From positions 1 through 46,051 of the forward strand of contig CAMAUC010000019.1 in NCBI GenBank assembly GCA_945861265.1: DNA of 46,051 nt. The letters run 5' to 3'. Both the position numbers and the translations under genes were made by a program. The notes under the pieces were generated by a model. It saw only the letters and a program-made list of their open reading frames with translations, did not search any database and had not been told where the DNA came from. Positions 12,359 to 22,395 of the stretch are shown here, piece after piece; within the stretch, counting starts at the first letter, position 1, and the number at the start of each line of letters is the position of its first letter. The stretch is from Rhizobium sp. Q54 (GTDB taxonomy: Bacteria; Pseudomonadota; Alphaproteobacteria; Rhizobiales; Xanthobacteraceae).

Positions 12359-12386
12359 GGCTTTGGATCAATGGCTTTGGATCAAT
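12359..12386. repeat. 14-bp unit in two exact tandem copies
   Basis: The unit GGCTTTGGATCAAT occurs twice in direct contact and continues with GGC. The second copy contains the stop codon (TGA, minus strand) of otsA, so the duplication straddles the gene end. It probably arose by slippage. Confidence 0.8.
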
Positions 12387-13785
12387 GGCCGTCCGGCAAT
12401 GCTCCCGACGCTGCGCCCCGGGGCCTTTCCAGCACGCCGAGAAAGCGCTCCGCCCACTGGCTCAGATCGTTCTGCTTTAAAACGCGATAATTGGCGGCGT
12501 GCCGTTGCACGCGCTCGTCGAGCGGCATCGCCAGAGCGCGATCGATGGCGATGGCGACGCCTTCGGAATCGTAAGGATTGACCAGCAAGGCGGCGCTGCA
12601 TTCGCGCGCAGCGCCGGCAAAGCGCGACAGGATCAGCACGCCGGGATCGTCCGGGTTTTGCGCCGCGATGTATTCCTTCGCCACCAGATTCATGCCGTCC
12701 CGCAGTGGCGTCACCAGGCCGGCGCGCGCGGCGCGATACAGCCCGGCAAGCGCGGTGCGTCTATGCGCCTTGTTGATGTAACGCACAGGCGTCCACGAAG
12801 CCTCGCCATAGGCGCCGTTGATGCGTCCGACTTTTTCGCCGACTTGCCGGCCGAGATTGGCATATTCCTCGATATCGGTCCGGCTGCGCGGCGTGATCTG
12901 CAAATAGGTCACCTGGCCGCGCCAACGCGGAAAATTGGTCAGCAACCGTTCGAATGCATCCATGCGCTCAGGGATGCCCTTGCTGTAATCGAGCCGGTCG
13001 ACGCCGATGATCATCGCGCGTCCCGACAGGCTGCCCATCACCTCGCGCACGAAGGTGGAATCGACGGCGCGGCGCGCCAATCGCTGGAATGCATCGGTCT
13101 CGACGCCGACCGGAAAAACACCGAGCCGCACATCGCCTTCGTCGAAGGCAAAACTGTCGGCGTCGAGCCGCCGCAAGCCGCGCTCGTTGGCGAGATAACG
13201 GGCGAAATTGGCGGCGTCGGTCTCGGTCTGGAAGCCAACCAAATTGTAATAGCCGAGCGACGGGATGAGTTGCTCGTGATTGGGCAGCGCCGTCACGATT
13301 TCTTCCGGCGGAAACGGAACATGGATGAAGAAGCCGATTTTGTTCTTGTGCCCGCGCTCGCGCAACGCCTTGGCCAGCGGCATCAAATGATAGTCATGCA
13401 CCCAGATGACGTCGTCCGGACGCAATATCTTCTCCAGATTTTTGGCGAAAAACCCATTGACCCTGAAGTAGCCGCCAAGATCACGGCGCGTGAATTCGGC
13501 GAGATCGAGCCGGTAGTGCAGGATCGGCCACAACACGCGGTTGGCAAAGCCGTTGTAGAATTCCTCGTAATCGTCCTTTTGCAGATCGACCGTGACATAG
13601 GACACGTTGTCCTTGTCGAGTGTCCGCGCCGGCTCCGGCGCGCCGTCGGACACACGTCCGCTCCAGCCGAACCAGACGCCGCCGCGCCGTTTGAGCGCCG
13701 GACGAATAGCAACCTCCAGCCCGCCGGCGCGCGCGCTGCCATCAGGTATGCCAACTCGGTTGGAAACTACGACGAGCCGCGCCAA
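12382..13785 (-). CDS. otsA: trehalose-6-phosphate synthase (GT20)
   Basis: A 467-residue retaining glycosyltransferase making trehalose-6-phosphate from UDP-glucose and glucose-6-phosphate. Family blocks are all present: VVVSNRVG at the N-terminus, [54 protein letters not shown] and the UDP-glucose site [18 protein letters not shown]. No ATG precedes the conserved N-terminus. A TTG at 13785 preceded by GGGGAG (seven-base spacing) gives [12 protein letters not shown], the expected start. It overlaps the upstream GH15 gene by 19 bp, which implies translational coupling. Confidence 0.95.
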
Positions 13786-15563
13786 TACCGGTCTCCCCAA
13801 CTGCGTGACAATTTCATCGCGCTCATGATCAATCCGGCCATCGAATAGGTTTGCGGGAAATTCCCCCACAGCTTTCCGGTCGCCGGATGAATGTCCTCGG
13901 ACAACAGACCGTAACGGTTTCGCATTTTCAGGGCATCGACGAACATGTCGCGGGCTTCGTCGTGCCGCCCGATTTCCCACAACGCATCGACCAGCCAGAA
14001 GCGGCAGATAAGAAAGGCCGTCTCCGGCATGCCGAAATCGTCGGCGGCGACATAACGCATGACGTGATGGCCGCGCCGCAGCTCGCGTTCGATCGCCTCG
14101 ACGGTGGCGACAAAGCGCGGATCGTCGGCGGCGACCAGACCGAGTTCGGACAAGAGCAGCGAGCTGGCATCGAGATCGTCGCCGCCGAAAGCGCCGGAGA
14201 ATGCATTGCGCTTGGCGTTCCACGCCCGCTGCGTAATCTCGTCTCCGAGCCGCATGGCATTGCCGCGCCAGTACGCGGCGCGATCGGCAAGACCGAGATG
14301 GTCGGCAATGGCTTCAAGCCGCTGACATCCGGCCCAGCACATCGCCGCCGAATGCGTATGCACCTGCTGGCGGCCGCGAAATTCCCAGATGCCCGCATCG
14401 GGTTCAAGTGCCAGCCTGGCTGCCTGCTCGCCGAGCGGCTCCAGCGAGCGGAACAGCGCGACGTCGCCGGGCTTCGGCAGCCGGCGGTCGAAAAACATCG
14501 GCGTCGCGGCAAGGATGATACTGCCGTAAACATCGTGCTGCGTCTGATGCACGGCGGCATTGCCGATACGCACCGGCCCGTCGCCGCCATAGCCGGCAAG
14601 CGCGGGTGCGACCCACTCCTCCAGCCTGTCGGTGTGGACGATGCCGTAAAGCGGCCGGATGGTATCGGCGCGCCCGGTCGATATGCTCAGGATGTAGGAG
14701 ATGAACTCTTCCATCGTCCGCGTCGCGCCGATGCGGTTTAGTGCACTGACAACAAAGAATGCATCGCGCAGCCAGCAGTAGCGATAATCCCAGGTGCGTC
14801 CCGATCCCGGGCCTTCCGGAATCGACGTGGTGAGCGCGGCGACGATCGCGCCGGTTTCCTCGAAATTGCACAGCTTGAGCGTGATGGCGGCGCGGATGAT
14901 CTCGTCCTGCCAGTCGATGGAGAAGGCCAGCCGGCGCACCCACTCCTGCCAGTAGTCGAGCGTGCGCCGGTAAAGATCGCGGCACGTGCTCTCAAGCGCG
15001 TGCTCGAACGGCTCGTCGGTGCCGAACACCATATGCACGGGCCTTGTCAGCACGAACGAGGCTTCGTTCTCGATCTGCGAGATCGCCGCGTCCGTTGTGA
15101 GACGCACCGGCACCTCGTCGCGCCAGAAGCGGATATGATTGCTGCCGGTCGAGCGCTGCTCGACCGGCGCGCCGTGCCGATGCGTGACGCGGAAGCGGAT
15201 GGTGATGCGCGGCATGCCGGCGATCGGCTCGACGATGCGCACCAGCTGCGGCGGCCGGAAGGTGCGGCCGAAATTCTGGAAGCGCGGCGCGAAATCGGTC
15301 ACGCGCACCTTGCCGCCCTTGCTGTCGGTCAACTCGGTCACGACCATGGCGGTGTTGCGAATATAATTCGACGTGGATTCGACCTGATCGTCGAGCATCA
15401 CATCGGTGAAGCCTTTTTCCTCGTCGCCCGACAGCAGCCGGCAAAACACCGGATCGCCGTCATAGCGCGGCAGGCACCACCACAAAATCCGTGCGTCCGG
15501 ATTGACCAGGGCGGCGGTGCGCCCATTGCCGATCACGGCGATATCGAGCCCGTAATCCGTCAT
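13767..15563 (-). CDS. GH15 family glycoside hydrolase (glucoamylase/trehalase-like)
   Basis: A 598-residue protein with an N-terminal beta-sandwich (about 1-210) and a GH15 (alpha/alpha)6 barrel. Diagnostic blocks are RTWDYRYCWLRDAFF, HTHSAAMCWAG, LSEDIHPATGKLWGNFPQ and a substrate-site GHHVMRYVAADDFG. GH15 members hydrolyse terminal alpha-glucosidic bonds; some bacterial ones act on trehalose. No signal peptide is seen, so it is cytosolic. Its place between otsB and otsA, 11 bp after otsB and overlapping otsA, suggests trehalose or glucan turnover linked to trehalose synthesis. Whether it is a trehalase is inference from context. Confidence 0.9.
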   Translation of the reverse strand: MTDYGLDIAVIGNGRTAALVNPDARILWWCLPRYDGDPVFCRLLSGDEEKGFTDVMLDDQVESTSNYIRNTAMVVTELTDSKGGKVRVTDFAPRFQNFGRTFRPPQLVRIVEPIAGMPRITIRFRVTHRHGAPVEQRSTGSNHIRFWRDEVPVRLTTDAAISQIENEASFVLTRPVHMVFGTDEPFEHALESTCRDLYRRTLDYWQEWVRRLAFSIDWQDEIIRAAITLKLCNFEETGAIVAALTTSIPEGPGSGRTWDYRYCWLRDAFFVVSALNRIGATRTMEEFISYILSISTGRADTIRPLYGIVHTDRLEEWVAPALAGYGGDGPVRIGNAAVHQTQHDVYGSIILAATPMFFDRRLPKPGDVALFRSLEPLGEQAARLALEPDAGIWEFRGRQQVHTHSAAMCWAGCQRLEAIADHLGLADRAAYWRGNAMRLGDEITQRAWNAKRNAFSGAFGGDDLDASSLLLSELGLVAADDPRFVATVEAIERELRRGHHVMRYVAADDFGMPETAFLICRFWLVDALWEIGRHDEARDMFVDALKMRNRYGLLSEDIHPATGKLWGNFPQTYSMAGLIMSAMKLSRSWGDRYWRGSS

Positions 15564-15574
15564 GCGATTTTAAA

Positions 15575-16360
15575 TTACTCATAGCGGGCGAGCTGCCGCA
15601 GGGCCCGGCGAACCTGAGCCGGAGAGGAGAAAATGCCCGACAGCCCGGAAAAGTTCCGTCCAACCGAAAAACCTTTGCCGCCCAACGCCGGCAACGCCAC
15701 GAAAGCCGCCTCGTCGGTCACGTCGTCGCCGATAAACACCGGCATTCGGCCGCGAAATGGCGCTTGCATCATGAGCGCGCGCACGCCGTCGCCTTTATTG
15801 ATGCCGGGGCGCTTCACCTCGACCATGGCCTTGCCCAGCAGCACCTCGGTCGGCTCCGCGGCAAACGCGGCGCGGCTGGCCTCGACATGGGCGCGCAACC
15901 GGTCTTCCTGTTGCGGCGCCCGGCGGTAATGCAGCGCCACCGAGTAGCCCTTGTCCTCGAAGTCGATACCGGAGCCCGGCGTCGCCGCATCGGTCAGGTG
16001 GCGTCGCATATCGCTCGGCAGATCGTCGATGCGCGAGGCCGCGGCGCCGGCAATGCGCAATTCGGCACCGTGGCCGCCGACCGACGACAAACGCAGCGGT
16101 GCGAAAAGAATGTCGAGATCGCGGATCGGCCGCCCGCTGACCAGCGCCAGCGCGCCGCCGGTCAATCGATCGAGCGCGGCCAGATCGTGCTTGAGCGTAT
16201 CCGGCACATCGACATCGAACGGCGACGGCCCGATGTCGATCAAGGTGCCGTCAACATCGAGGAGGAGCGCGATCGCTCCGGGATCGAATTTGGCAAATTC
16301 GTCCAATGCAGAATTGTTGGCCTGGCAGTCGGCGGTATCGTTCGCAGTGGATTGAGTCAC
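15575..16360 (-). CDS. otsB: trehalose-6-phosphate phosphatase
   Basis: A 261-residue HAD-superfamily phosphatase removing phosphate from trehalose-6-phosphate. HAD motif I is LLLDVDGTLIDI (about residues 32-43; nucleophile Asp and acid Asp), motif II is LALVSGRPIRDLD, the conserved Lys is in KRPGINKGDG, and motif III/IV is PVFIGDDVTDEAAF. A start GTG at 16360 is preceded by GGAAGG. It lies 25 bp after the exported-protein gene and 11 bp before GH15 in the same transcription unit. Confidence 0.94.
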   Translation of the reverse strand: MTQSTANDTADCQANNSALDEFAKFDPGAIALLLDVDGTLIDIGPSPFDVDVPDTLKHDLAALDRLTGGALALVSGRPIRDLDILFAPLRLSSVGGHGAELRIAGAAASRIDDLPSDMRRHLTDAATPGSGIDFEDKGYSVALHYRRAPQQEDRLRAHVEASRAAFAAEPTEVLLGKAMVEVKRPGINKGDGVRALMMQAPFRGRMPVFIGDDVTDEAAFVALPALGGKGFSVGRNFSGLSGIFSSPAQVRRALRQLARYE

Positions 16361-17502: not shown

Positions 17503-17527
17503 AAAAGCCCGGCCCCAAGGGGCCGGC
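17503..17527 (-). terminator. terminator of the cheW/CA/MCP operon
   Basis: On the minus strand CCGGCCCC-TT-GGGGCCGG forms an 8-bp GC stem, followed by GGCTTTTCC. It lies about 75 bp after the MCP stop and before the next minus-strand gene, so it separates the chemotaxis operon from the trehalose operon. Confidence 0.7.
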
Positions 17528-17600: not shown

Positions 17601-19706
17601 CTAGAATTCCTTCCAGTCCTCGGCTTTGACGGCGGTCGCAAGCTGGGTACGCATCTGCTGCACCGGACCACCGCGATTGCCGCGCGGCTCGCCAGCCGGG
17701 CCGGCTTTCGTGACGGCGGCCATCGGGGCCGGCTTGGCCTTGACGGCGGTGTCGCGCGCCGGCTGGTTGGCCATCGCGGCAGGAGCTGCGAATTCGCCGG
17801 CGCCGCCGATCTGGAAGAAGGCCACCTGCTCGTCCATCGCCTTGGCCTGGAATTCCAGGGTCTTGGCGGTGGCGGCGTTTTCTTCGACCAGAGCCGAGTT
17901 CTGCTGGGTGACTTCATCCATCTGGGTGAGCGCCTTGTTGATCTGCTCGATGCCGGTCGCCTGCTCGATCGAGGCATTGGCGATGTCGGAGACGACCGCC
18001 GCCACCTTGTTGATCGATTCGACGATCTCGGTGAGCGACTCGCCGGCCTTGTTGACCAGTTCGACGCCGTCCTTGACCTGGCCGTTCGAGTTGGTGATCA
18101 GGTCCTTGATGTCCTTGGCCGCCTGCGACGAACGCTGCGCCAGGCTGCGGACTTCAGAGGCCACCACCGCGAAGCCACGACCCGCATCGCCGGCCCGCGC
18201 CGCTTCCACCGCCGCGTTGAGCGCCAGCAAGTTAGTCTGGCGGGCGATTTCATCGATGACGCCGATGATGTCGGAGATCTTGCGCGAGGATTCTTCGATC
18301 TTCGCCATGGCATCGACAGCCTTGGCGACGATCTGGCCGCCGCGGTTGGCGACGTCGCGGGTCTGGTTAGCGTCGGTATTCGCCATTTGCGCGTTTTCGG
18401 AGTTCTTCCTCACGGTCGCCGACAGCTCTTCCATCGCCGCTGAAGTCTCTTCCAGGCCGGCGGCCTGCTCCTCGGTGCGCTGCGACAGGTCGGTGGTGCT
18501 TGTCGAGATTTCGGCCGAGGCGTTGGTGACCTCGCGGCCCGAGGATTTTATCGCGCTGATGGTCGAAGAAACCTTCTCCGCCATCAGTTGGACCGCATCG
18601 GCGATCTGCCCGACTTCGTCTTTGCGCCCAAGCCCCGGCACCTCGATCGAGAAGTTGCCGCTCGCAATCGTCTCCAATGGAGCGACCAAGGCGGTGATCG
18701 GTTTGGCAATGCCGCGGCCGATCAACCAAGCGAGTAACGCGCCGATAACCAGGCCGCCGATCGCCATCGCCGCGATAAGCCACTGCACGCTGGTCATGAG
18801 TGTCTCCGCGGACTCTTCCTCTTTCGACGCCAGTTCGCTCGTCGCGAGCTTGATGTCGGTGACGATCGACGCAATTTGTCCGCCAAGCTTCTTCATCTCG
18901 CCGTTCAACAAAACGTCGATCTCGTGCGCGTCGGCGGCGGCCTTGGTGTAGCCGGCGTTGTATTTCTCGGACAGCACCTTGATCTCTTCGAACAGCTTGC
19001 GGGCGTCACCGGTCGTGGCGGCGTCGAGGCCCGTCATGACAGACTTCAAGTCGGCAAAGGCCTTGCTGGCCGCGTCGGCGGACGCCTGGTCGTGCCGCGC
19101 CAGGACCTTGTTGACGCTTAACCGCGCCAGCATGACATGCTTGAGCCCTTCGCCCGCCAGCGTCAGCATGGTGCCGTTGCCGGTCTTGGCCGCGGCGGCC
19201 TGGAGAGCCTCGAAATCCGCGCGCAACTTGAGACCGCTCGGGTCGAGAACGTCGTTGACGAGCGCGGCCTCCTCCTGCCGCAACGTCACCACCTTCTCGA
19301 AATCGGCTTTCCACGTGGCCGCCTGCTTCTTTACCTCGGCAATCTTCTGCTTGCGATCCGGATTCGTTACCGACGCCTCGACCATCTGGATCGCTTCAAA
19401 CAGCGTCACCAGCCCCTGCCGGGCGCTTTCAAGAAATGCCTTCTCGCCGGTCAGTCCGAACTCGCGCGCCTGCCAGCGAGCGAACAACAAGGAGCGGTCG
19501 ACCGCCGCCGCGCGCGTGCTGTTGGCGGACTGACGCGCAAACTCCCTGAAGCCGTGCTCCACACTGCTGAAAGCCAGATAGGCCGTTCCGGAAATAAACG
19601 CCGTGATCGCGAGCACGACGGCAAAGCCGATAGCAATCTTGGTGGCAATTTTACGGTTGGTAAAGAGACCGGTCAGGCCGCGGCTCTGAGTGGATTCATA
19701 AGACAT
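17601..19706 (-). CDS. methyl-accepting chemotaxis protein with large helical periplasmic sensor
   Basis: A 701-residue chemoreceptor. TM1 is about residues 24-47; a periplasmic all-helical region of about 260 residues follows, the size of a helical bimodular (HBM) sensor rather than a 4-helix bundle; TM2 is about 309-330; HAMP is 331-384. The signalling tip carries [20 protein letters not shown]. The last five residues are DWKEF, matching the x-W-x-x-F tether that recruits CheR/CheB. It is the last gene of an operon with cheW and an alpha-carbonic anhydrase, 18 bp after the latter. The ligand is unknown; known HBM receptors bind small carboxylates. Confidence 0.95.
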
Positions 19707-19724
19707 AAGGTCAATCCTTCTGGA

Positions 19725-20519
19725 TCAGTTCGATTGAATGATGAAGCGGTGGTTGCGGCTCTGGACAGGCCGCGCATTGTTCGGAAACAACTGGGCAAAC
19801 TGTTTGATCTGTTCGGCAGACGCTTCGATCGGCTCTCTGAACACCGTCCAGGTCAGGCCTTCGGAACACGGCGGCGTCGTCAGCGAGCCCATGTAGCGGA
19901 AGTAGCCAGGCGCCTTCGGCAACAGACCGTTCGGATCGATCGATCCGGCAACGCGCTGCTCCGGCCCCTCGGTCTTCGGCATGGCATCGAAGATCGATTG
20001 CAAAGCCGAGTTCTTCTCGCCGGGCTTCACGAACACGCCGACAACCGCGAGATTCCCCGTACTCGACTTGTGCACGAAGTGGCATTCCAGATCGAAAGGC
20101 TTGCCGGCCAGCAAGTGCTCGCTCGGATGATGGAAGTGAAACTGCAGCAATTCGTATTTGGCGCCGCCGATCGTGCAGGATGAACCGGCGTCGGCATTCA
20201 CCTGGATGGTATGGCCGTTGTTCAAGATGCGCAGCGGCAGCGGCTTATAGTTGAGCGCCACCGCACCTGCCTCGCCGTTCATCGCATTGGCCAGATCGAC
20301 CGGCGTCTGTTCGAGACCGAGCTGACAGACTTTGAAATCCGGCTGCAGCTCTCCCCAATGTTCGGCGCCGGTGTCTCCGGCATAGCTCCAATGCGGCGCC
20401 GCGTGACCCGCCGGTCCGGCGGCATGCGGAGTCTCGGAGGCGCCGGCATAGCCGGCTGCGAGGCAGCAAGCGCAGCCCAGCGTGGCGGTGCGAAGAAAAT
20501 GGCGTCGATTGAGTTGCAC
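19725..20519 (-). CDS. exported alpha-class carbonic anhydrase
   Basis: A 264-residue alpha-carbonic anhydrase. The three zinc histidines are H128 and H130 in LLQFHFHHPSEH and H147 in LECHFVHK; the Thr199-equivalent block is SLTTPPCSEGLTWTVF, and C65/C218 are placed as the usual disulfide. The N-terminus NRRHFLRTA followed by a hydrophobic stretch is a Tat-type signal, so the folded enzyme is exported to the periplasm. It interconverts CO2 and bicarbonate plus H+. GTG start at 20519, with AAGGA nine bases upstream. It sits between cheW (12 bp away) and a chemoreceptor gene (18 bp), an unusual setting. Confidence 0.95.
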   Translation of the reverse strand: MQLNRRHFLRTATLGCACCLAAGYAGASETPHAAGPAGHAAPHWSYAGDTGAEHWGELQPDFKVCQLGLEQTPVDLANAMNGEAGAVALNYKPLPLRILNNGHTIQVNADAGSSCTIGGAKYELLQFHFHHPSEHLLAGKPFDLECHFVHKSSTGNLAVVGVFVKPGEKNSALQSIFDAMPKTEGPEQRVAGSIDPNGLLPKAPGYFRYMGSLTTPPCSEGLTWTVFREPIEASAEQIKQFAQLFPNNARPVQSRNHRFIIQSN

Positions 20520-20531
20520 GGGCTAGATTCC

Positions 20532-21065
20532 TTACTGTTCGGATAAATCGGAAGACGTCACTCGCGCGGAATGCAAATCCGGCAACGACAGCAGGTTAGG
20601 CAAATCGATCAGGGCGATCATGACGTCGTCATGGGTCACGATGCCGGCCAGGAAACTCGCCGCGTCCGACCCGCCGGTGCGCGGCACCTTCTGGATCTGG
20701 GCGGCTTCGATCGTCACGATGTCGAGCACGCGGTCGCCGATCAGGCCAACCTGCCGTCCGCCGATCTGCACGATAATGACGATATGCAGCGGCGTGGTTT
20801 CGGTCAGGCCCTGGCCGAAGCGGCAGCGCAGATCGACGATCGGCACGATGGCGCCGCGCAGATCGAGTACACCGCGCACATAATCTGGCTGCTTCGGCAA
20901 ATGGGTGATGTCGGTCCAGCCCTTGATCTCTCGAACCGCCATGATGTCGACGCCGTACTGGTCGTTGCCGATGGCGAAACTGACGAACTGGGTCTGTCCG
21001 GCGGCAGCGGCCGAGCCGGCCCATGTCGCGCTGGAAGTGTTGGAAGCAACGGCGTGCTGGTGCAT
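20532..21065 (-). CDS. cheW: CheW chemotaxis coupling protein
   Basis: A 177-residue CheW protein that links receptors to the CheA kinase. The two SH3-like subdomains are recognisable from FVSFAIGNDQYGVDIMAVRE, the conserved VRGVLDLRGAIVPIVDL block and VGLIGDRVLDIVTI. The N-terminal 25 residues are an Ala/Ser-rich extension. Start ATG 21065 follows GAGG; an upstream ATG at 21143 would add 26 unrelated residues. First gene of the operon with alpha-CA and MCP. No cheA, cheY, cheB or cheR lies in this window, so the module must use kinase machinery encoded elsewhere. Confidence 0.95.
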   Translation of the reverse strand: MHQHAVASNTSSATWAGSAAAAGQTQFVSFAIGNDQYGVDIMAVREIKGWTDITHLPKQPDYVRGVLDLRGAIVPIVDLRCRFGQGLTETTPLHIVIIVQIGGRQVGLIGDRVLDIVTIEAAQIQKVPRTGGSDAASFLAGIVTHDDVMIALIDLPNLLSLPDLHSARVTSSDLSEQ

Positions 21066-21321: not shown

Positions 21322-22395
21322 ATGTCAAAACCACTCGCTACAAGTGTCGTGAAATTTGCAAATGAAGAGTGGCAACTTGCAACTACGCTGCGGGCATCGC
21401 TGATCAGCCACGCACTGAGACACATGAGCCACCTCAACGCCTTTACCGTTGCCAGCACGCGACACATCGACGAGATGCGTGGCATCCTGTTCGATGTTTA
21501 CGACGCCCGGCTTTTCGATCTGCACGGCGACGGCAACCGCTTTGCGGCGAAGGCGGCCTATTTTCGTTTCGGTTCGTCGAACCTTTCCTATTGCGCGCAT
21601 CAGGCGCCGGTGCGCATCGAATTCCGCGAGGACGACTACATCCGCTTCCAGGTCTGCACAGCTGGCAACGGCCGCACTGTCATCGGCGGCGCACCGGTCG
21701 GCGTCGACGAGAAAAGCATCGTCTGCTCGCCATCGAATTCGGCCATGGAATTCGGTCCCTCACTGGAGCAGTTTTCGTTGCGGGTCAGCCGCACGGTCCT
21801 GGAGGAGGATCTGACGATCTTGCTTGGGGCGCGCCCCAAGCAAGCGCTTGCCTTCGCATCGACTGCCGACTGCAATATCGGCAGCACATTGCGGCTGCGT
21901 GAAAAGATCATTTACGTCGCCAACAGCATCGACGTTTCGGACGACCCCATTCCGGCGCCCATGCTGCGCGAGATGGATCGCATGATCCGCATCTCAACGC
22001 TTTATGGCATGCCGAACAACTACAGCGAGCGCCTCTATGCGGCCGAGCCGGCCTCCGCGCCATGGCAGGTCAAGAGGGTCGAGGAATGGATCGACCCGCA
22101 TTGGCGCGACGAGGTGACAATCGACCAACTGGCCGAGGTTTCCGGTTCAAGCGTGCGCAGTATCTTTGCCACCTTCAAGGCGGCGCGCGGCTATACGCCG
22201 ATGGCCTATCTCAAGCGCGTCCGCCTGCACGCGGCGCGCGGCATGCTGCTGGTCGCGCAGCCGGGCGCGTCGGTGACCGCCATTGGCCTAGCCTGCCAGT
22301 TCGCCAATCTCGGTCATTTCGCGTGCGACTATCAGGAGCAGTTCGGCGAATTGCCGTCGGCGACCTTGCAGAAAGCGCGAGCCCTCGCCGCATAA
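21322..22395 (+). CDS. AraC-family transcriptional regulator
   Basis: A 357-residue regulator. The N-terminal 220 residues look like the AraC_binding_2 type sensing domain (EFGPSLEQFSLRVSRTVLEE). The C-terminal double helix-turn-helix spans about 245-355: VTIDQLAEVSGSSVRSIFATF (helix 1 region) and a second unit with AIGLACQFANLGHFACDYQEQFG. Start ATG 21322 has no strong RBS; an alternative is ATG 21424 (MSHLNAFTVAS), close to the usual domain start. Divergent from the cheW operon with 256 bp between; it could control that operon, but no direct evidence exists. Confidence 0.88.
   Translation: MSKPLATSVVKFANEEWQLATTLRASLISHALRHMSHLNAFTVASTRHIDEMRGILFDVYDARLFDLHGDGNRFAAKAAYFRFGSSNLSYCAHQAPVRIEFREDDYIRFQVCTAGNGRTVIGGAPVGVDEKSIVCSPSNSAMEFGPSLEQFSLRVSRTVLEEDLTILLGARPKQALAFASTADCNIGSTLRLREKIIYVANSIDVSDDPIPAPMLREMDRMIRISTLYGMPNNYSERLYAAEPASAPWQVKRVEEWIDPHWRDEVTIDQLAEVSGSSVRSIFATFKAARGYTPMAYLKRVRLHAARGMLLVAQPGASVTAIGLACQFANLGHFACDYQEQFGELPSATLQKARALAA

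Follow-up and report, generated by a model that had tools for sequence, protein, structure and literature searches.

The 46,051-nucleotide stretch of Rhizobium sp. Q54 analysed here (contig CAMAUC010000019.1 of assembly GCA_945861265.1, from here on "the window"), which is an entire contig of a 3.75-Mb draft genome, carries on its minus strand the genes for a chemotaxis adaptor (cheW), an alpha-carbonic anhydrase (CA) and a chemoreceptor of the methyl-accepting chemotaxis protein (MCP) type. CA and MCP are neighbours in several families of Alphaproteobacteria, the catalytic residues of the enzyme are conserved in these pairs, and the CA has been inherited together with the sensor of the receptor. 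The reading put forward here, to which we give an even chance of being right, is that both proteins act as a single unit that senses inorganic carbon, in which a sensor of helical-bimodular (HBM) type would read bicarbonate, or otherwise the proton, and taxis would follow. A broader proposal, which we rate a shade below that, is that the window locus exemplifies a class of enzyme-coupled inorganic-carbon chemoreceptors that would have evolved at least twice, with an HBM sensor in Alphaproteobacteria and with a four-helix sensor in other Pseudomonadota. The elements of the locus are the following:

20532..21065, minus strand: cheW, chemotaxis adaptor, ATG start, 177 aa (PF01584, E 4e-34, 117.5 bits against a cut-off of 23.5)
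19725..20519, minus strand: alpha-CA, putatively exported, GTG start, 264 aa, with a twin-arginine signal (PF00194, E 3.6e-42)
20079..20138, minus strand: CA stretch with H128, H130 and H147 as zinc ligands, plus the Glu E134 (from the sequence; all four in 33/33 linked CAs)
17601..19706, minus strand: chemoreceptor (MCP), ATG start, 701 aa, with predicted HBM-fold sensor, HAMP, signalling domain and DWKEF tail (domain matches and model)
18792..19565, minus strand: periplasmic sensor of the MCP, residues ~48-305, predicted six-helix helical-bimodular fold (AlphaFold2, Foldseek and profile match)
19092..19097, minus strand: R204-H205 codons, the pair typical of CA-linked sensors (residue counts, linked against unlinked)
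19461..19466, minus strand: R81-E82 codons, close to where sensor helix 1 ends (residue counts, linked against unlinked)
17509..17526, minus strand: terminator-like hairpin ~75 bp past the MCP stop (consensus scan and folding)

Recurrence of the CA-MCP pair in Alphaproteobacteria

A previous sequence-only reading of this DNA had described cheW, CA and MCP as one unit and had suggested looking for this neighbourhood in other genomes. Once this was done, the CA-MCP part of the trio was found to recur in several alphaproteobacterial families, while cheW is a member only in the genus of the window. The refuting outcome named in that reading, a trio confined to this strain, is thereby clearly contradicted. 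Among the 43 genomes of that genus, 16 have an alpha-CA and four have the trio, with a total of five trio loci. Each of the two alpha-CAs of the window genome, which also encodes a beta-CA, lies within a trio, the second of them (L188, G000:C4, 7746-17612) within an array where three MCP genes and three CheW genes lie together; its sensors are unlike and its signalling halves similar. In another genome of the genus (G041; L017, L020) the MCP frame after the CA is broken by one stop, and in G033 the MCP runs off the contig.

At the family level (391 genomes), alpha-CA matches with E up to 1e-60 occupy 123 places in 113 genomes, and their scores are split, with 15 places in 14 genomes at E 3e-115 or better and the next at 6e-86. 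All of those 15 are directly before an MCP (hereafter, linked), as opposed to none of the 27 that were read from the 108 lower-scoring places. Since an unlinked alpha-CA is additionally present in 8 of the 14 genomes with a linked one, the linked CA is an extra copy there. Beyond the family, a scan of named GTDB genomes with a profile of the five CAs of the genus provided 79 loci, from the best 80 of 331; 24 of these have, after the CA and on its strand, an MCP-type frame with a homologous sensor. These linked loci span Rhodopseudomonas, Hyphomicrobium, Skermanella, Dongia, Kiloniellaceae, Rhodospirillaceae and further metagenome-assembled genomes; the named, genus and family counts overlap, eight of the 24 coming from assemblies that the family search also covered. 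Three of the 24 (L020, L027, L059) have an interrupted MCP frame, in another (L021) the contig end cuts it, and that of L031 (G468), which was considered as a sensor with a different output, stops just after the HAMP domain begins and was treated as an MCP truncated after its sensor. The long CA frames of L032 and L124 resembled CA-MCP fusions; in L032 the match begins at the CA's own signal peptide, and the extra length was taken as open frame upstream.

On two Skermanella plasmids the pair consists of annotated genes 27 bp apart and, in general, the adjacency holds down to ~45% identity between CAs and 22% between sensors. Among the linked loci read, only the five of the window's genus have cheW directly ahead of the CA; the conserved core is CA plus sensor, and cheW belongs only to the genus. 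In a sample of the class (385 genomes), alpha-CA was found in 32 genomes (38 places), and 64 genomes had the sensor type with an E limit of 1e-15 and at most five candidates scored per genome. The comparison of those 38 CA places with the sensor coordinates gave matches in G000 (twice), G730 (twice), G468 and G419, and the neighbouring DNA was read for a subset of the loci. In L133 (G538), what is left of the CA amounts to 171 aa, with the signal and the C-terminal part kept, beside an intact-looking MCP. No common upstream partner for the sensor type was evident by eye in the genes before the MCPs of 20 loci, among which L133 carries the CA remnant and L132 and L139 showed no upstream gene: a dehydrogenase-like gene precedes the MCP in L138 and L142 (from the same genus), a similar lipid-kinase-like gene does so in L135 and L140, and in L133, L134 and L146 the sensor MCP follows another MCP.

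Catalytic residues and export signal of the carbonic anhydrase

The window CA matches PF00194 with 145.2 bits (cut-off 27) and has a complete catalytic set (H128, H130, H147, E134, T214 and H103), which includes the three zinc histidines that the sequence-only reading had recognised; we take these residues, by analogy to human CA II, to be the zinc histidines, the gate Glu and Thr and the proton-shuttle His, respectively. The three His, the Glu and the Thr are kept in 33/33 linked CAs and the shuttle His in 32/33, while some catalytic residues have been lost among the unlinked ones. At the cut-offs used, only six positions of the CA are both shared by the linked CAs and seldom found in the unlinked ones.

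The twin-arginine translocation (Tat) signal, also part of that earlier reading, reaches 17.8 bits with NCBIfam TIGR01409 (cut-off 16.7) and stays at 12 bits, under the cut-off of 22.7, with Pfam TAT_signal. A loose twin-arginine-like pattern fits the CAs encoded before HBM-type MCPs in 34/34 measurable cases, one of them with Lys-Arg, and a stricter pattern fits 30/33 linked CAs. The short linker contains at least two His in 32/34 linked CAs with the signal, against 23/99 unlinked CAs with it (99 of the 144 unlinked CAs carry such a signal). A Cys pair (CACC, CPxC) is located just ahead of the likely cleavage site in many CA Tat signals, linked or unlinked (20440-20519 in the window, and homologues).

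The sensor and its predicted fold

The MCP of the window is recognised by its signalling (MCPsignal, 179 bits) and HAMP (38.1 bits) domains, both above cut-off, and it also matches CHASE3 (35.9 bits, cut-off 28). Its sensor, which had been estimated at about 260 residues, comprises ~258 between two membrane helices, with limits (~48-305) drawn by eye on an AlphaFold2 model. This model, obtained from 31 sequences, has six helices and a mean pLDDT (predicted local distance difference test) of 85.9, and Foldseek aligns it to McpS (2yfa) with TMt 0.86, a root-mean-square deviation of 2.5 and E 1e-4; in order of E-value PilJ comes first, and the TorS-TorT complexes (3o1i, 3o1h) appear at E 0.02. 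At the sequence level, the sensor profile reaches McpS 2yfa at E 3e-6 and ancestral PcpI structures at E 5e-9. Given that the window sensor remains under the cut-off of the Pfam family HBM (PF16591, 16.3 bits against 29.8), it is termed here an HBM-like fold and is not filed as a member of that family, which at E up to 0.1 matches 16 of the 31 rows of profile A2. Taken together, the predicted fold is of the McpS helical-bimodular type, which suggests a receptor suited to a small anion. Of the profiles used, A2 consists of the CA-linked rows and one unlinked neighbour (L021), and A3 of CA-linked rows only, so that the share of linked loci among their top matches is biased upward.

Four residues distinguish the CA-linked sensors. 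R204 is present in 28/32 and H205 in 25/32 of them, and each in 0/22 of the unlinked rows outside their group; R81 and E82 are found in 24/32 and 26/32, respectively, and in ~1/22 unlinked rows each. Not counted here are the CA-remnant row, any unlinked row that falls within the group, and the stray L081. In the model, helix 1 has R81/E82 close to its end and helix 4 has R204/H205 at its end, and in the HBM topology both pairs may lie at the junction of the modules. At its other end, the window MCP finishes in DWKEF, a tail that fits xWxxF, a C-terminal tether motif that not all MCPs have; the CA-linked MCPs of Rhodopseudomonas type that were compared lack it.

Co-inheritance of CA and sensor

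Quick trees, rooted at midpoint, were used to compare the histories of both partners. On the tree of 129 distinct CAs, 33 of them linked, linkage requires seven label changes, compared with a mean of 29.5 after shuffling, and none of 500 shuffles gave so low a number. On the sensor tree (63 rows), one group of 40, with a Shimodaira-Hasegawa-like approximate likelihood ratio test (SH-aLRT) support of 93, contains all 33 CA-linked sensors, one of which is that of G538 beside the CA remnant; outside this group there are 22 unlinked rows and the stray L081.

The signalling half of the receptor has followed a different path. That of the window MCP is 76% identical to the one of an MCP from its own genome with an unrelated sensor, versus 33% to that of the CA-linked MCP of Rhodopseudomonas, with which its sensor shares 41% identity; on these figures, CA and sensor stayed together through an exchange of the output half. 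The signalling half of the Rhodopseudomonas MCP, in turn, has 50-58% in common with four other linked MCPs and 52.5% with each of two MCPs without CA, and since CA-less receptors are equally similar in it, that half is uninformative on the presence of the CA. As far as can be read from sequences, CA and sensor behave as one unit on an exchanged signalling half, whichever direction the swap took, and this transfer as a unit is the strongest argument of its kind for an enzyme that would work with the sensor. A Mantel test gives a distance correlation of 0.85 between CA and sensor, 0.70 between CA and signalling half and 0.62 between sensor and signalling half, over the 13 of 32 pairs with a full signalling half and with all three values inflated by shared descent.

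A second pairing outside Alphaproteobacteria

A sample of the phylum (388 genomes) contains 66 alpha-CA places in 58 genomes, all of which were read, two of them (G796:C56 and G841:C30) with little or no downstream DNA. Apart from the two CAs of the window genome, the linked ones in this sample are eight CA genes outside Alphaproteobacteria, which precede seven MCPs in six genomes, one MCP having two CAs in tandem (L241, 6103-7846, in G841, a genome with five alpha-CA places). The catalytic set is complete in 8/8 of these CAs; three of the eight fit the loose twin-arginine pattern, and by eye their signals look like those of ordinary signal peptides.

The sensor of these MCPs is of another kind: it has four helices in ~240 aa, including the membrane helices, is weakly related to Tar-type domains and is rich in His and Glu. 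With its model (mean pLDDT 80.1, from seven sequences), Foldseek returned nothing at E 0.001 or better; the natural receptor domains that came closest, those of Vc1313, PcaY_PP and Tar, have four helices and score E 0.01-0.04. When the sensor's profile is compared with that of the HBM set, the alignment covers only the first ~155 residues. A search whose profile consisted of the seven CA-linked four-helix sensors had these same seven among its eight best places. Their CAs belong to a separate clade of 11 rows (SH-aLRT 99), of which eight are linked, and no HBM-linked CA falls in that part of the tree; 30 named loci (from cyanobacteria and other non-Pseudomonadota) were left out of this tree. 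The CA-MCP pairing thus probably arose twice, by convergence, and the two origins are called only probable because the trees are quick.

Organisation and surroundings of the locus

In the window, cheW, CA and MCP follow one another with gaps of 12 and 18 bp, as the coordinates confirm, and from this spacing we infer that they are co-transcribed. The terminator that had been proposed after the unit corresponds to a hairpin (17526-17509) of 7 bp, all GC, with a short T run, and the 50-nt stretch around it folds with -28.3 kcal/mol (z -3.3); the consensus scan found six such sites against 4.2 expected, which makes it weak evidence when taken alone. The same scan revealed no promoter-like site upstream of cheW, the single site found being inside the MCP gene. 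The cheW of the trio is one of nine CheW-domain places in the genome. A divergent AraC-type regulator (21322-22395) begins ~260 bp upstream of cheW and, downstream of the trio, a trehalose-type cluster (12382-16360) with glycosyl hydrolase, phosphatase and synthase-like frames was recognised by eye.

Proposed mechanism and alternatives

Left uncatalysed, the hydration of CO2 would be slow for a chemotaxis system, which makes its comparisons over seconds. In the mechanism proposed here, the CA would be exported by the Tat pathway to the periplasm and would equilibrate CO2 with bicarbonate and a proton next to the receptor, whose HBM sensor would read the product of the enzyme, most likely bicarbonate by means of the conserved basic residues R81, R204 and H205, or otherwise the proton. 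HAMP and CheW would then relay the signal to the flagellar motor, and the output would be taxis along gradients of CO2, bicarbonate or pH. The sequence-only reading had already suggested a receptor for these ligands; the recurrence of the pair and the small-anion type of the predicted fold support it in part, and the ligand itself is the part that is still conjectural.

Several observations weigh against this proposal. Among the sensors of the CA-linked group, 7 of 40 rows have no adjacent CA, one of them (L132) at a contig start and hence not judgeable; G653, G657, G555, G769 and G066 are genomes that carry such sensors, and in G457 the contig start prevents a judgement. Conversely, the CAs of L036, L041, L045, L050 and L174 are close to the linked ones and have no MCP. 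In G538 the CA remnant is devoid of the zinc-site region and the MCP has been kept, and G816 has a four-helix sensor without an adjacent CA. For these reasons, the enzyme is not indispensable. In addition, the diagnostic residues were chosen post hoc out of all columns, and the His of the R-H pair is absent from a divergent set of linked sensors (L035, L039, L042, L044, L046, L049 and L067). A search for the RuBisCO large subunit in the window genome (a draft, 95.7% complete) came back empty, and autotrophy was accordingly rejected as the reason for the pairing there.

What else might the receptor be sensing? HBM receptors also bind organic acids, and the ligand may be one of them. The CA would be, in that case, merely a co-regulated helper for periplasmic pH or CO2, and the receptor would sense an ordinary organic acid or another nutrient. 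Acids of the tricarboxylic acid cycle are indeed reported as HBM ligands (PMC5795001), and the sensor group includes members that have no CA; yet this explanation, which we consider unlikely without dismissing it, does not account for CA and sensor being kept together through the change of signalling half, for the probable second origin or for the maintenance of a linked CA beside an unlinked one in those 8 of 14 family genomes. An even simpler account would be a neutral gene order maintained by descent, with no functional link. The clustering of linked CAs on the tree is what shared descent alone would give, but the adjacency persists down to the low identities mentioned above, survives the swap of the signalling half and is seen again in another clade of CAs, all of which leaves this account with very little credit.

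Other alternatives preserve a functional link and change its nature. The CA could be a docked co-receptor, like TorT for TorS or PstS for CtpL, which would bind the sensor and report through this contact whether its own ligand is present; catalysis would then be incidental. The sensor fold is common to TorS, solved together with TorT (3o1i, 3o1h), the binding protein PstS activates CtpL, itself an HBM receptor (PMC6321045), and the distances of CA correlate better with those of the sensor than either does with the signalling half, over those 13 pairs and inflated as all three values are. Against it, a pure binding partner would not need full catalytic conservation, the CA positions that set linked apart from unlinked CAs at the cut-offs used number only six, and the second pairing has a different sensor fold, so we find the co-receptor rather improbable. 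More doubtful still is a pH receptor, in which the CA would make the periplasmic pH track CO2 fast and the sensor would respond by titration of His and acidic residues of its own. Linked sensors typically have H205, and those of the four-helix kind contain much His and Glu, but the HBM type has only one diagnostic His, which is accompanied by an Arg that suggests an anion, and ambient buffering would presumably blunt the signal.

If the inorganic-carbon sensing unit proves true, it would be a bacterial CO2/bicarbonate receptor with a concrete genetic handle, and its mechanism, the enzymatic preparation of the ligand, would be unlike direct binding or binding-protein relays. This unassigned HBM-like sensor subfamily would also gain a candidate function, and CO2 taxis becomes directly testable in carriers such as Rhodopseudomonas, Hyphomicrobium, Skermanella and Dongia, with CA inhibitors as a ready tool.

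Comparison with known systems

There are precedents for the parts of this system, and the combination was found described nowhere in the open-access literature: neither the search on the CA-chemoreceptor pairing nor that on CO2/bicarbonate taxis returned a description of it among the matches listed (most subscription papers fall outside this literature). The closest relatives of the window sensor are the McpS-type HBM chemoreceptors of Pseudomonas (2yfa, 2yfb), with which it shares the predicted six-helix bimodular fold and a distant sequence kinship. McpS, which binds carboxylates, differs in that the identity is only 12% and the window sensor is under the Pfam HBM cut-off, and no enzyme partner of McpS is mentioned in the portion of the source at hand (PMC5795001). 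The nitrate receptors of the McpN/PilJ type likewise have a helical sensor, and McpN reads a small planar anion, nitrate, by means of an Arg (PMC6381276); theirs is, however, a single four-helix bundle.

TorS-TorT, CtpL-PstS and Tar with the maltose-binding protein also combine a sensor with a separate periplasmic protein (PMC6321045), although the partner is a binding protein in all of them, and here it is an enzyme with full catalytic residues. In Helicobacter pylori, bicarbonate is among the signals reported for the arginine/bicarbonate chemoreceptor TlpA (PMC8406319), whose dCache sensor contrasts with the all-helical one predicted for the window. Lastly, in the nucleotide cyclases of fungi and animals a CA turns CO2 into the bicarbonate that the sensor reads (PMC3085406). 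The sensor is there a eukaryotic cyclase, whereas here it would be a bacterial chemoreceptor, and the pair described in this work would then be, if the proposed reading is true, a bacterial counterpart of the CA-dependent CO2 sensing of animals and fungi.

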